From NCBI GenBank assembly GCA_937995755.1, contig CALKJD010000034.1:37574-101573 (forward strand): a DNA stretch of 64,000 nt. Reading direction: 5' to 3'. The notes beneath the pieces were generated by a model. It saw only the letters and a list, made by a program, of their open reading frames with translations, did no database searches and was not told the origin of the DNA. Source of the stretch: an uncultured Saprospiraceae bacterium (lineage in GTDB: Bacteria > Bacteroidota > Bacteroidia > Chitinophagales > Saprospiraceae). This document shows positions 7,581-59,614 of this stretch, piece by piece. The position numbers and the translations under genes are program-made. Each line of letters begins with the position of its first letter. Positions within the stretch are counted from its first letter, which is position 1.

Positions 7581-9494
7581 ATGGGAGAACAACGCGTATC
7601 AGCACTTAATGACGAGAAGAAAATGCAAAAGTTTGTAAAGGCATTATTGGCCGATGTACAAGCTATGGAATATATGCTAGAGCACGATTGGTTTGAATCT
7701 GGGACTATACGTATAGGTGCTGAGCAGGAGATGGTTATGGTAAATAAGCAAAGCCAAAAGCCAGCATGTGTAGCGATGGAGGCCTTGGATAAAATGAAGG
7801 ATTACGACTGGGTAGAGACGGAACTGGCCAAATTTAACTTAGAGACTAACCTGACGCCTAGAGAATTTGTAGGATCATGCTTTTCTGATCTAGAAAAAGA
7901 AAATTCGGAGAAATTAGAGAAAATCCAAGAAGTATTGGACACTATGGATACTGACCTTGTGCTTACTGGTATACTACCGACGCTCAAGAAGAGGGATTTG
8001 ATCATGGATAATCTTACTCCAAAGAAAAGGTATTACGCCCTTATGGAGGCCATTAATGAGCAGTTGATAGGTAATGCATACGAGTTAAAGCTTAGCGGTA
8101 TTGATGAATTAGCATTAAAGCATGATAGCCCATTATTAGAAGCAGTAAATACCAGTTTTCAGATTCATCTACAGATAGAGCCTAAGGATTTTGTGAAGAT
8201 GTATAATATCGCACAAGCGATTACAGGACCGATTATGGCTATATCGGCCAATAGTCCATTAGTGTTTGGTAAGAGACTATGGCATGAGAGTAGGATAGCT
8301 ATGTTTCAGCAAGCTTTAGATACTCGATCTACGCATGATCATATGAGAGAACGTAGTGCGAGGGTAAGCTTTGGTAGAGATTGGCTGCATGAGTCTATTA
8401 TGGAAATCTATAAAGAGGATATTGCGAGGTTCAGAGTATTGCTTAGTTCTGATGTCAAAGAAGATTCTCTCGCTTGTATTAAGAAAGGGGAGACACCAAA
8501 GCTTAGATCGCTACAGGTACATAATTCTACCGTATACAGGTGGAATAGACCATGTTACGGAATCAGTGATAACGGTAAGCCACACTTAAGAATAGAAAAT
8601 CGTGTAATAGCGGCTGGACCTACAGTGATTGATGAAGTAGCGAGTGCATGCTTTTGGCTTGGACTGATGGAAGGTATGGCGCAACGGACTGATGATATTA
8701 CACAGCATATATCGTTTGAGGATGCCAGGGATAATTTTGCTAAAGCAGCACAATTTGGTATTGACTCAAAATTCAATTGGTTTAATGATGAAAAAATAAC
8801 TGCGTCTCAGCTAATTAAAGAAAAACTTATACCTATAGCAAGAGAAGGTCTAGAATATAGAAAAGTCGACAAAGCTGATATAGACAAGTATCTAGGTGTC
8901 ATTGAAGAAAGAACTGATAAGCATATGAACGGTGCCAGATGGATGCTTAGAGGCTATTCAGAACTCAAGAAAACGATAGGAGAGGATGAGGCACTAAGAG
9001 TAATTACCGCAGAGATCGTTCATAATCAAAAGCAAAATATACCTGTGCATAATTGGCCTGCGCCAGATGCTAGTAGACTCAAACAATATAAGATTTCTGA
9101 AATGTTGGTTTCAGATTTTATGGCTACCGATATTTTTACGGTACAGAAAAACGATATCATCCAATTAGTTGCTGAGTTAATGGATTGGAATAAGATAAAA
9201 TATACGCCAGTAGAAGATTCTAAGGGGAAACTTATTGGACTAGTCTCTGCCAGATTAATATTAAGAGAACTAACAAGAAACCCTTCAAGGCGATCTACTA
9301 GGACTGCTGAAGATATCATGGTGACAGATCTAATTACGATTACCGAAGAAACGACGATAAAGGAAGTTACTAGATTAATGCGTGAGCATAATATCGGTTG
9401 TCTTCCTGTTGTCAATGGTGATGAGTTAGTTGGTATGATTACGGAAAACGATTTTATCCGTATCAGCCGAAGACTAATTGAAAGAATGGGGTAG
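7581..9494 (+). CDS. glutamate-cysteine ligase (GCS2)-like protein with C-terminal CBS pair
   Basis: N-terminal GIRIGAEQE-like GCS2 fold motifs; C-terminal VSDFMATDIFTVQKND and AEDIMVTDLITITEETTIKEVTRLMREHNIGCLPVV CBS repeats. Confidence 0.82.
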   Translation: MGEQRVSALNDEKKMQKFVKALLADVQAMEYMLEHDWFESGTIRIGAEQEMVMVNKQSQKPACVAMEALDKMKDYDWVETELAKFNLETNLTPREFVGSCFSDLEKENSEKLEKIQEVLDTMDTDLVLTGILPTLKKRDLIMDNLTPKKRYYALMEAINEQLIGNAYELKLSGIDELALKHDSPLLEAVNTSFQIHLQIEPKDFVKMYNIAQAITGPIMAISANSPLVFGKRLWHESRIAMFQQALDTRSTHDHMRERSARVSFGRDWLHESIMEIYKEDIARFRVLLSSDVKEDSLACIKKGETPKLRSLQVHNSTVYRWNRPCYGISDNGKPHLRIENRVIAAGPTVIDEVASACFWLGLMEGMAQRTDDITQHISFEDARDNFAKAAQFGIDSKFNWFNDEKITASQLIKEKLIPIAREGLEYRKVDKADIDKYLGVIEERTDKHMNGARWMLRGYSELKKTIGEDEALRVITAEIVHNQKQNIPVHNWPAPDASRLKQYKISEMLVSDFMATDIFTVQKNDIIQLVAELMDWNKIKYTPVEDSKGKLIGLVSARLILRELTRNPSRRSTRTAEDIMVTDLITITEETTIKEVTRLMREHNIGCLPVVNGDELVGMITENDFIRISRRLIERMG

Positions 9495-9655
9495 AGCGCT
9501 CTTTTTTTACGAAGGAAAAAAAAGCGCGGACATCGCATTTCGGAAGCGTTTTGTAGAAACGCGTGCAATACGAAAGAATAGTAGAGCGCTCTTTTTTTAC
9601 GAAGGAAAAAAATCGCGGACATCGCATTTCGGAATCGTTTTGTAGGAACGACACA
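9484..9655. repeat. two-copy compound hairpin repeat (90 bp period)
   Basis: gtagagcgctctttttttacgaagg at 9491 and 9581; each copy has 2-3 stem-loops. Confidence 0.9.
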
Positions 9656-16762: not shown

Positions 16763-17011
16763 AAAAAGGCATATTACTTTGCAAGCCACTGCTTTGGCAA
16801 TACGCTGTCGCCCTTTCCTTCGGAAAATGAAAATAGAGAAAAAAGGCATATTGCTACGCGTGTTTGCTTCGCAAGCCACTGCTTTGGCAATACACTGTCG
16901 CCCTTTCTTCGGAAAATGAGAATAAAGAAAAAAAGGCATATTGCTACGCGTGTTTGCTTCGCAAGCCACTGCTTTCGCAATACACTGTCGCCCTTTCCGA
17001 AGGAAAGGGCT
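16763..17011. repeat. three-copy compound hairpin repeat (90 bp period)
   Basis: aaaaaggcatattgctacgc at 16841 and 16931 plus shortened first unit; last unit ends GCCCTTTCcgaagGAAAGGGC. Confidence 0.9.
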
Positions 17012-32798: not shown

Positions 32799-32898
32799 AA
32801 TATGAAATGAGGCAAAAGTGAGCTTCAAATCGTTGATCGATAGTTGATTATAGATATTTCATACATTTATTTAAATTATTTATATATGTTTGAAACTT

Positions 32899-33180
32899 TT
32901 AAGTAAAAAAATCGTTTTTAACTATAGATGTTTGGATATGAAGGTATAAACCTTAGATTTGCGATCCAAATAGAATTATATCACTTAATGAAGTGATCTA
33001 TAAATAGAAATAAATACCAATGGCATGGTTTTAGTCTTAAGACTATCACCAAAGGCCAACAAAAAATAAAGAGAGGTTGACCTCGAATCAGCTTTTAATA
33101 GCAGACCTCTTTAAAGATGTAGTTTTCTTATTTTGAGACCTTAGTCGAAAGAGCCCAGGATTGACAGCAATCTTGGGCTT
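32899..33180 (+). ncRNA. candidate structured non-coding RNA
   Basis: series of stems: TTTGGAT/ATCCAAA, AAGGT/ACCTT, ATCACTT/AAGTGAT, TGGC-TGGT-AGTC/GACT-ACCA-GCCA, 9-bp 33070-78/33104-12, 11-bp 33152-62/33169-79. Confidence 0.4.
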
Positions 33181-33183
33181 ATT

Positions 33184-33524
33184 AATTTCCGGCTTTCTCA
33201 AAAGAAAGCGGAAATGTCGAAATTCGCAATTCAGAATTTCGCAAAAGAGAGTTACTGAGAGAGTTCTCATAAAAAAAGAGAATTATCAAAAGAGCATTTC
33301 CGGCTTTCTCAAAAGAAAACGGAAATGTCGAAATTCGCAATTCAGAATTTCGCAAAAGGTACTTACTGAGAGAGTTCTCATAAAAAGGAGAATTGTCAAA
33401 AAGAGCAATTTCCGGCTTTCTCAAAAGAAAACGGAAATGTTGAAATTCGCAATTCAGAATTTCGCAAAAGAGAGTTACTGAGAGAGTTCTCATAAAAAGG
33501 AGAATTTTTAAAAGAGCAATTTCC
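33184..33524. repeat. three-copy compound hairpin repeat (about 111 bp period)
   Basis: tttccggctttctcaaaagaaa at about 33186, 33297, 33409; each unit has three stem-loops. Confidence 0.92.
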
Positions 33525-52931: not shown

Positions 52932-54380
52932 TTGACTAATACACTCATCAAAGTAGTAGACTTACAAAAGACAAAGATAATCGCGACACTTGGTCCAGCA
53001 TCTAGTAGTAGAGAAAGATTACTAGAATTGGTTAAAGCTGGAGTAGATGTTTTTCGTCTCAATTTTTCTCACGGTAAACATGAGGATCATCAAGCGGTAA
53101 TAGAGAGGATTGTAGAAATCAATAAGACCTATAAGCAGCACGTAAGCATATTGGGAGATTTACAGGGCCCTAAATTGCGAGTAGGTGAGATAAAGGACAA
53201 TAGGCTGGAGATCAAACCTGGAGATATACTCACATTTACATCTCAGAAATGTGTAGGTACGATGAAGAAGATCTATATGAGCTATGAGCAGTTTCCTCAA
53301 GATGTCAAAGTAGGGGAGAAAGTATTGATCGATGACGGTAAGTTAGTATTGAAAGTAAATGCTACGGATGGTAAATCGCAGGTGAAGCTTGAGGTATTAT
53401 ACGGTGGGATTCTTTCGTCAAATAAAGGAGTGAATCTCCCTGATACAAAGATTTCTCAACCATCGCTTACGGAGAAGGATCTTATAGACCTCGAATTTAT
53501 GTTGACGCAGCCTATTAACTGGATTGCGCTGTCATTTGTCCGTAAAGGCAAAGATATTACCGACCTCAAAAAGAAGATTGCTGAAGCTGGCCATATGGCT
53601 AAAGTAATAGCCAAAGTAGAAAAGCCAGAAGCCATCGCCAACATAAAATCTATTATCAAGGCCACAGATGCAGTTATGGTAGCTAGAGGAGACCTGGGTG
53701 TAGAAGTACCAATGGAGAAGCTTCCAAGTATACAGAAGATGATTATCAAAAGATGTATACAGAAAGGAAAGCCAGTAATCGTAGCGACACAGATGATGGA
53801 GAGTATGATTACTAATCCAAGTCCAACACGAGCAGAAATTACGGATGTAGCTAATGCTGTGTTAGATGGTACTGATGCTGTGATGCTATCTGGAGAGACT
53901 TCAGTTGGTGCCCATCCTGTCAAAGTAGTGGAAGCGATGAATAAGATAATCTATGAGACAGAGAAGTCTTATGAGATACATGGAAAAAGGCCTAAGGCAT
54001 CAGAAGATAGCCCAACATATCTTTCTGACAAGATATGCTTGACGGCTTCTAAGCTTGCGGAGGAAATAGGCGCCAAAGGATTAATTGGAATTACAGTATC
54101 TGGATATACGGCTTTCAAAATGTCGAGTTTTAGACCTTCGTGTCCAATATTTATATTTTCACCGCAAGAAGAAATGCTAGCGACGCTTAATTTGCTCTGG
54201 GGAGTTAAATGCTTTCACTATGACAAGTTCTCTACGACAGACGAGACTATTGCTGATTTAGCGCAGATACTTAAGGAAAAGAAAAAAGTAAAGCAAGGAG
54301 ACATTGTTGTCAATACTGCAGCTATGCCGCTTCATAAGCGTTTCCGTACTAATATGCTGAAGATAACTATGGTGGATTAA
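52932..54380 (+). CDS. pyk: pyruvate kinase
   Basis: KIIATLGPASSSRERL, RLNFSHGKHEDH, VMVARGDLGVEVP; TTG start. Confidence 0.96.
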   Translation: MTNTLIKVVDLQKTKIIATLGPASSSRERLLELVKAGVDVFRLNFSHGKHEDHQAVIERIVEINKTYKQHVSILGDLQGPKLRVGEIKDNRLEIKPGDILTFTSQKCVGTMKKIYMSYEQFPQDVKVGEKVLIDDGKLVLKVNATDGKSQVKLEVLYGGILSSNKGVNLPDTKISQPSLTEKDLIDLEFMLTQPINWIALSFVRKGKDITDLKKKIAEAGHMAKVIAKVEKPEAIANIKSIIKATDAVMVARGDLGVEVPMEKLPSIQKMIIKRCIQKGKPVIVATQMMESMITNPSPTRAEITDVANAVLDGTDAVMLSGETSVGAHPVKVVEAMNKIIYETEKSYEIHGKRPKASEDSPTYLSDKICLTASKLAEEIGAKGLIGITVSGYTAFKMSSFRPSCPIFIFSPQEEMLATLNLLWGVKCFHYDKFSTTDETIADLAQILKEKKKVKQGDIVVNTAAMPLHKRFRTNMLKITMVD

Positions 54381-54545
54381 AGCTTTTTTTTTCAAAGAAA
54401 AAAAACGCTGACAGCGGAGTCAGGCAGTGTTTTCAAAAGGAAAACACGTTGACACTGCCATTAAAAGAGCTTTTTTTTCAAAGAAAAAAAACGCTGACAG
54501 CGGAGTCAGGCAGTGTTTTCAAAAGGAAAACACGTTGACACTGTC
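54378..54545. repeat. two-copy compound hairpin repeat (87 bp period)
   Basis: agcttttttttcaaagaaaaaaaacgctgacagcggagtcaggcagtgttttcaaaaggaaaacacgttgacactg at 54381 and 54468. Confidence 0.92.
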
Positions 54546-58244: not shown

Positions 58245-59459
58245 ATGAGTGATAATTGGCAAATAGGGAAAGAGAAAGTAAAAGGTCTCAGAAAAGAAAC
58301 TGAATACGCTGTGTTGGTTGGTGTTATCACTAAGCAATACACTGAAGAGCAGGCAAAAGAACATCTTGATGAGTTGGAGTTTTTGGCAAAGACTGCAGGA
58401 GCAGAAATCAAGAAACGTGTGACTCAGAAGTTGCAGCATCCTGATGTACGTACTTTCGTCGGTAAAGGTAAGCTGCAAGAAATTGCGGAATACATTGAAC
58501 GCAATGAAGATATTTCGCTGGTTATATTTGACGATGATCTTACTGGAAAGCAAGCTAGTATACTAGAGGAAGAACTCAAAGTAAAAATCGTAGATCGGAG
58601 TACATTAATACTCGATATATTTGCTAGTAGAGCGCAGACTGCGCAGGCAAAAACGCAAGTAGAATTGGCACAGACGCAGTATATGCTACCTAGGTTGAGA
58701 GGTCTATGGGATCACTTAGAAAGACAGAAAGGTGGTATTGGTATGAGAGGGCCAGGAGAGATGGAGATAGAGACGGATAGACGTATCGTAAGAGATAAAA
58801 TATCTAAACTCAAAAAGCAACTTGAAAAGATAGATCAGCAGAATTCTACTCAGCGAAAAAATCGTGGAGCTCTTATCAGAGTCGCGCTTGTAGGATATAC
58901 TAATGCGGGTAAGTCTACTTTGATGAATCGACTTAGTAAGTCGGAAGTATTCGCGGAGAATAAGTTATTTGCAACTTTGGACACTACGGTCAGGAAAGTA
59001 GTGTTTGGGACGATGCCATTCTTGCTTTCTGATACGGTTGGATTTATAAGGAAATTGCCTCACCACTTGATAGAGAGTTTTAAATCTACATTGGATGAAG
59101 TAAGAGAAAGTGATATATTAGTACATGTAGTCGATATCGCTCATCCTCAGTTTGAAGATCACTTGAAAACGGTAAGAATGACCTTGCAAGAACTCGGTGT
59201 GACGGATAAACCAACACTCTTAGTTTTTAATAAAATAGATCTTTATAAAGAGAAGTATTTTGATGACTTTCTAGATGATGAAGTAAAGTCGGAAATCATA
59301 ACTGAATTAAAATCTAATCTTAAAAACAATTATGACGATGATAATATTTTCATCTCAGCAGTTACTAAAGAGAACGTAGATGAACTCCGAGCTAAGTTGA
59401 CGGAGATGATAGATTTGGAGTACAATAAAGTATATCCATACAAAACTAAAACATGGTAA
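58245..59459 (+). CDS. hflX: ribosome-associated GTPase HflX
   Basis: GIGMRGPGEMEIETDRRIV, GYTNAGKSTLMNRLSKSEV, FATLDTTVRKV, SDTVGFIRKLPHHLIESFKSTLDEV. Confidence 0.96.
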   Translation: MSDNWQIGKEKVKGLRKETEYAVLVGVITKQYTEEQAKEHLDELEFLAKTAGAEIKKRVTQKLQHPDVRTFVGKGKLQEIAEYIERNEDISLVIFDDDLTGKQASILEEELKVKIVDRSTLILDIFASRAQTAQAKTQVELAQTQYMLPRLRGLWDHLERQKGGIGMRGPGEMEIETDRRIVRDKISKLKKQLEKIDQQNSTQRKNRGALIRVALVGYTNAGKSTLMNRLSKSEVFAENKLFATLDTTVRKVVFGTMPFLLSDTVGFIRKLPHHLIESFKSTLDEVRESDILVHVVDIAHPQFEDHLKTVRMTLQELGVTDKPTLLVFNKIDLYKEKYFDDFLDDEVKSEIITELKSNLKNNYDDDNIFISAVTKENVDELRAKLTEMIDLEYNKVYPYKTKTW

Positions 59460-59549
59460 TTTCCGGCTTTTCGAAGAAAAACGGAAATAACGAAACACGA
59501 CAATTCCGTGTTTCGAAAAAGTAGATTTCCGGCTTTTCGAAGAAAAACG
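59456..59549. repeat. two-copy compound hairpin repeat (66 bp period)
   Basis: atttccggcttttcgaagaaaaacggaaat at 59459 and 59525; CGAAACACG acaattc CGTGTTTCG between. Confidence 0.9.
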
Positions 59550-59614
59550 GAAATATCAAAATAGAGTAAGTGTTGTCAAAATTTAAGTAGCAAATTTTTA
59601 AAACTATATCAAAG

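Follow-up and report, generated by a model that had tools for sequence, protein, structure and literature searches.

BOX elements of Streptococcus pneumoniae are modular intergenic hairpin units of variable copy number, as are the elements described here, although the modules differ. To our knowledge, BOX elements are not tied to stop codons. The REP elements of E. coli carry a GTAG tag and a bulge (PMC8266576), and the GTAG end often provides the TAG stop codon of the gene (PMC3733652). According to the passage of PMC12306157 that cites Liang et al. 2015, REPs located within 15 nt of a stop codon stall ribosomes and lower translation. Here we describe double-hairpin elements placed at gene ends in a genus of Saprospiraceae. 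The window (the whole stretch of 64,000 nucleotides that was analyzed) is part of contig C34 of the 4.4 Mb draft genome G000 (92.7% complete). The genus sample consists of four genomes, G000 to G003, all genomes used were drafts, and ORFs were called by length. Among the genomes compared, the closest relative with matching elements is G001 (records CALLPN01, uncultured Saprospiraceae bacterium).

Two arrays of hairpins and the first family

The tandem array at 33184-33524 has a period of 111 and 3.1 copies, with units of 111-112 bp. Three A-B-C units of period about 111 had been claimed in an earlier note on this DNA, and they are present at 33185-33506, where hairpins A, B, and C were read directly. 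In unit 1, hairpin A (TTTCCG-GC-TTTC..GAAA-G-CGGAAA) occupies 33185-33215 and hairpin B (CGAAATTC-gcaattca-GAATTTCG) 33218-33241, both from direct reading and folding, and hairpin C lies at 33262-33284. The A-B pair of unit 2 spans 33296-33352 (A at 33296, B at 33329, C at 33373-33394) and that of unit 3 spans 33408-33464 (A at 33408, B at 33441, C at 33485-33506), all on the + strand. RNA folding of the A-B units 1, 2, and 3 gave -21.7, -18.1, and -17.1 kcal/mol, and the z scores of -5.3, -4.3, and -3.9 versus dinucleotide shuffles indicate that A-B folding exceeds chance. Hairpin C was not found in the G001 counterpart of this array. As it was seen in the 33184-33524 array only, we place it outside the A-B family as a local addition.

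The array at 59459-59561 abuts the stop codon of hflX (GTPase; 58245-59459, + strand) and does so in all four genus members. Its layout is A-B-A. The first base of the A-B pair (59459-59515, + strand) is also the third base of the hflX stop codon. Hairpin B of this pair is CGAAACACG-acaattc-CGTGTTTCG, and the second hairpin A, also read directly, follows at 59525-59554 on the same strand. The proposed covariation of hairpin B between the two arrays was borne out, in that the stems differ yet pair. The CGAAA/TTTCG base attributed to hairpin B needs a small correction for unit 3, which starts with TGAAA (outermost pair T-G). In other genera having a readable hflX end no A-B pair was found at the stop codon, with some of these loci represented by another ORF.

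The array at 33184-33524 lies not at a stop codon but behind the terminator of a candidate conserved non-coding RNA. Alignment places this candidate RNA gene at 32800-33183 on the + strand (start approximate), with a terminal hairpin GAGCCC..GGGCTTATT. Its 3' end directly adjoins the array in G000, G001, and G003, and its last ~120 nt are nearly identical across these genomes. A conserved AT-rich block upstream resembles a Bacteroidetes promoter, and the candidate RNA gave no Rfam match. A further tandem array following a terminator was seen at 16774-17010 (90 bp period, 2.5 copies), and the orthologous place in G001 holds an array with related words (TACGCGTGTTTGCT..GCAAGCCACTGCTT).

A covariance model of the A-B pair was searched in G000-G003 and in 57 other genomes of the order. 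About 24, 18, 8, and 5 matches were found in G000, G001, G002, and G003, respectively, and the family was absent from the 57 other genomes apart from one marginal match (G006, E 0.0014), which was outside the genus and was judged to be chance. The A-B pair is one dispersed family, and within the searched genomes it is confined to a single genus. The earlier note overlooked this dispersal, the limitation to a genus, and the anchoring at stop codons, which two loci alone would not reveal. A GTDB-wide pattern scan returned 66 stretches, of which only three, all in CALLPN01, look real, and the pattern CGGCTTTT..AAAAACG exceeds its control and forms hairpins in G000 and G001 only. Note that contig C91 of G000 terminates (L303) and contig C100 begins (L290) inside near-identical A-B arrays, and thus the assembly was probably broken at one longer array.

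Covariation in two families of double hairpins

Seventeen A-B units from the four genomes were aligned and counted under the two-hairpin structure. Pairing was retained in 93% of cells and changes on both sides were seen in 9 of 21 pairs. The alignment contained 39 double-change cells, versus 13 ± 3.2 upon shuffling and 1-5 with slid partners, and the covariation was 0.324 (shuffled, 0.163 ± 0.016; slid partners, ≤0.09). Uncompensated mismatches as frequent as compensated ones had been named as the outcome that would speak against the pairing. The pairing withstood this test: the count was 25 unpaired cells against the 39 double changes, with 8 of the 25 falling on the loop-closing pair. Hairpin A often has an asymmetric internal loop, GC versus A, and the CAWTTC loop of hairpin B is present in 31 of 53 distinct units. 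An entirely different B stem (GGTTTAC/GTAAACC) with an unchanged loop is seen at purA and g487, and hairpin B at hflX has CACG/CGTG, CGC/GCG, and CGAG/CTTG in three species. Symmetric scoring of the first family gave 1 G.U versus 4 A.C cells and hence no G.U excess. We considered whether the B loop (CATTTC) might pair with the 3' arm of hairpin A and rejected this, because CATTTC is retained where A is TTTGTAC/GTACAAA.

The window also contains elements of a second family, the sequences of which are unlike those of the first although the layout is alike: hairpin 1 at the stop codon, a short linker, and then hairpin 2. One such element (9495-9573, + strand) follows the stop codon of a CBS-domain gene (7581-9494), with hairpin 1 at ~9496-9527 and hairpin 2 at 9533-9573, and a degenerate second copy reaches ~9650. 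Another (54379-54458, + strand) is at the stop codon of the pyruvate kinase gene (52932-54380) and consists of hairpin 1 followed by hairpin 2 at 54414-54458; tandem-repeat reading gave a second copy at 54466-54544 on the same strand. The window holding both families gave no Rfam match above the gathering threshold. A model of the second family was searched in G000-G003 and 35 other genomes, giving 25, 32, 4, and 29 matches in G000, G001, G002, and G003, respectively, and no match in the 35 others.

Hairpin 2 varies in its outer stem and has a short loop and a conserved core (GRMA, a G[TC]G-T-rich stem, and GT). The sequence of hairpin 1 differs almost everywhere, and its stems are often long perfect palindromes. 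In 18 hairpin 2 sequences 95.8% of cells are paired, with 48 double-change cells versus 16.5 ± 2.7 upon shuffling and a covariation of 0.516 versus 0.165, far stronger than in the first family. G.U exceeded A.C by 17 to 2 in a structure-blind MAFFT alignment and by 22 to 2 with symmetric scoring, although many of the G.U cells trace to one inherited column. The excess favors folding of the sense strand. Hairpins of a probable third gene-end family (GTGTTTGC..GCAAACAC, then CGGAG-..ATGTG..CACAT-..CTCCG) were noted at or near stop codons at L168 (G000:C35:9921), L173 (G000:C110:18658), L178 (G001:C21:10433, survey coordinates), and G001:C2:318640.

The pairing had been proposed to be selected or copied as a structure, and this is supported by covariation in both hairpins of the first family across the 17 units and also at orthologous sites. 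Selection versus copying is only partly resolved, because palindrome self-correction can also give compensatory changes. Quasi-palindrome template switching is a known mechanism that produces changes on both sides in a single step. If one arm were copied onto the other in this way and the copies multiplied by slippage, the hairpins could be neutral and functionless, an explanation that fits the near-identical units within arrays and the long perfect palindromes of second-family hairpin 1. We consider it distinctly improbable. The conserved asymmetric loops (GC/A of hairpin 1 and GRMA/GT of hairpin 2) would not survive such correction, which also does not conserve the CAWTTC loop and leaves unexplained both the second-family G.U over A.C excess and the exact placement at stop codons given below.

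Placement at stop codons, transcription, and turnover

When orthologs were grouped, hairpin A started -1 to +3 nt from an in-frame stop codon at 15 of 18 independent first-family sites. The genes are hflX, purA, carB, tatA (~65 codons, named from sequence), and those encoding two outer-membrane proteins, a DUF1573 protein, an IscA/HesB-like protein, an alpha/beta hydrolase, a UvrD/PD-(D/E)XK protein, an S41 protease, an FtsX permease, an ABC-F-like protein, an AAA protein, and one unknown. The host genes of the elements have no common function. In the second family hairpin 1 begins 0-3 nt after an in-frame stop codon at ~40 of some 55-60 sites (hand count). Given ~189 bp of intergenic DNA per ORF, a site would be so placed by chance with a probability of ~0.013, and the corresponding p-values, ~1e-24 for 14 of 17 first-family sites and ~1e-62 for 40 of 55 second-family sites if sites are independent, are indicative only, because the sequences and sites are related and neither cells nor sites are fully independent. 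TA[AG] precedes 26 of 34 first units versus 3 of 21 later units, indicating that the gene, not the repeat, supplies the stop codon.

Other placements were also seen. Besides the array at 33184-33524, L282 and L293 follow terminators (at L293 a terminator-like hairpin), and several second-family sites are 100-350 nt away from a called ORF. At the trpG-like gene of L300 the element overruns the gene end and by eye the stop codon is inside the hairpin loop. At two second-family sites (L277 and L373) hairpin 1 has a TAG stop codon in its apical loop, and its 5' arm is the end of the coding sequence. Stop-codon readthrough was rejected, since frame 0 is not kept open (0.72, 0.88, and 0.60 stops per 66 nt in frames 0, 1, and 2). 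Integron attC sites were considered because attC sites follow stop codons, and were set aside, since by eye the core does not resemble RYYYAAC/GTTRRRY and the order of genes is preserved.

Dispersal over many unrelated genes, presence or absence between orthologs, and tandem arrays are all as expected of REP-like miniature single-stranded DNA transposons, the hairpin ends of which would be recognized by an HuH/Y1 transposase and inserted 3' of TA[AG], with stop codons serving as harmless targets. The conserved bulge in hairpin 1 and the 5' TA[AG] also fit. We regard this origin as rather unlikely, as Y1_Tnp (PF01797) is absent from G000, the examined Y1_Tnp genes of G001 are without adjacent A/B hairpins, GTAG precedes just 3 of 34 first units and 1 of 21 later units, and TA[AG] is missing before most later units. 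Moreover, simple TA[AG] targeting would be expected to strike intergenic TA[AG] sequences far more often than in-frame stop codons, and the core is constant where the stems are variable. Two Y1_Tnp genes of G001 (L209 and L213) are flanked by other short palindromic repeats, AGGCTGAAGGCCTATG and AGCGATGGGCATCGCT. These have the look of genuine REP candidates and bear no relation to the double-hairpin elements.

Orthologous stop codons in the four genomes were located with one query joining the ends of seven proteins. At hflX the A-B pair is present in all four species, the G002 copy being degenerate. At purA it is present in the three species in which the site was found, with differing A stems and with both A and B covarying; the search gave no purA match in G003. 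At the orthologous stop codons elsewhere the pair is intact in some species, decayed in some, and lacking in others. The sites at carB, g487, and omp250 have been lost freely among species, and thus no single site is essential. By eye, the pyruvate kinase stop codon has the second family in G000 and G001 and different, weaker hairpins in G002 and G003. Hence, the sites are passed on by inheritance but can be lost, and their sequences change with the pairing retained.

A same-strand intrinsic terminator lies downstream of seven arrays (purA, carB, and five others), with the element between the stop codon and the terminator, and therefore these seven elements lie inside transcripts with the gene. 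Stable hairpins right after stop codons, some followed by A-rich or T-rich stretches, could themselves be unusual transcription terminators or attenuators. This seems to us very unlikely, because no T run, the mark of an intrinsic terminator, follows hairpin B or hairpin 2, ordinary terminators lie beyond several elements, and a co-directional gene follows most first-family arrays that have a called downstream ORF.

Interpretation and comparison with known systems

The reading we prefer, and to which we give about an even chance, is that these are transcribed gene-end double-hairpin elements of the 3'-UTR, located 0-3 nt from the stop codon and kept for their fold. They probably act on terminating ribosomes or on 3' mRNA decay. 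By analogy with E. coli REPs, hairpin 1 would lie in the mRNA under or just ahead of the ribosome at the stop codon and would slow termination or recycling, whereas the folded hairpin pair could block 3'-5' exonucleases, the net result being that the output of the upstream gene would be tuned. A trans-acting factor may read the conserved core of hairpin 2. In this reading the elements also spread to new gene ends and duplicate in tandem. We suggest, tentatively and with low confidence, that they form a new class of stop-codon-anchored RNA elements having at least two sequence families and one architecture, in which the core is read by a trans-acting factor. What guides their spread would then be the gene end and not a DNA sequence, for instance through coupling to terminating ribosomes or to the 3' ends of mRNAs.

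Exact placement at the stop codons of unrelated genes, together with free sequence and kept pairing, makes "where" and "shape" separable from "sequence". With dozens of gene ends in four species and both gains and losses, the elements provide a natural replicated data set for two questions: whether translation termination and mRNA decay are tuned by structure right behind a stop codon, and by what means palindromic elements reach gene ends when the known REP transposase is lacking.

As described in the part of PMC5910586 that cites them, the double-hairpin elements of Allomyces mitochondria also have two adjacent hairpins, which form a unit that is dispersed between genes and regarded as mobile. 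The Allomyces elements are mitochondrial, unlike those studied here, and that part of PMC5910586 reports no anchoring at stop codons.

Like REP/BIME sequences, the present elements are short, multicopy extragenic palindromes that are both dispersed and in tandem and are mostly downstream of genes (PMC3733652, PMC12306157, PMC8266576). Complementary stem changes are common to both, as is a bulge in some elements, and in the portions of these sources that treat position some REPs are within 15 nt of a stop codon. Unlike REPs, the double-hairpin elements mostly lack the GTAG tag, as the counts above show (a CGTC tag was looked for by eye at the elements and none was seen) and have no RAYT partner (Y1_Tnp, PF01797) in their own genome G000. 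We do not file them as REPs, because tests for the GTAG tag and for a transposase gene flanked by the repeats both came out negative. Also unlike REPs, they always consist of two different hairpins, are 0-3 nt from the stop codon at most sites, have a conserved core with stems that differ from site to site, and are retained at sites between species. The nearest known kind is the REP elements close to stop codons. The position is REP-like, and the elements carry features not reported for REPs in PMC3733652, PMC12306157, and PMC8266576.
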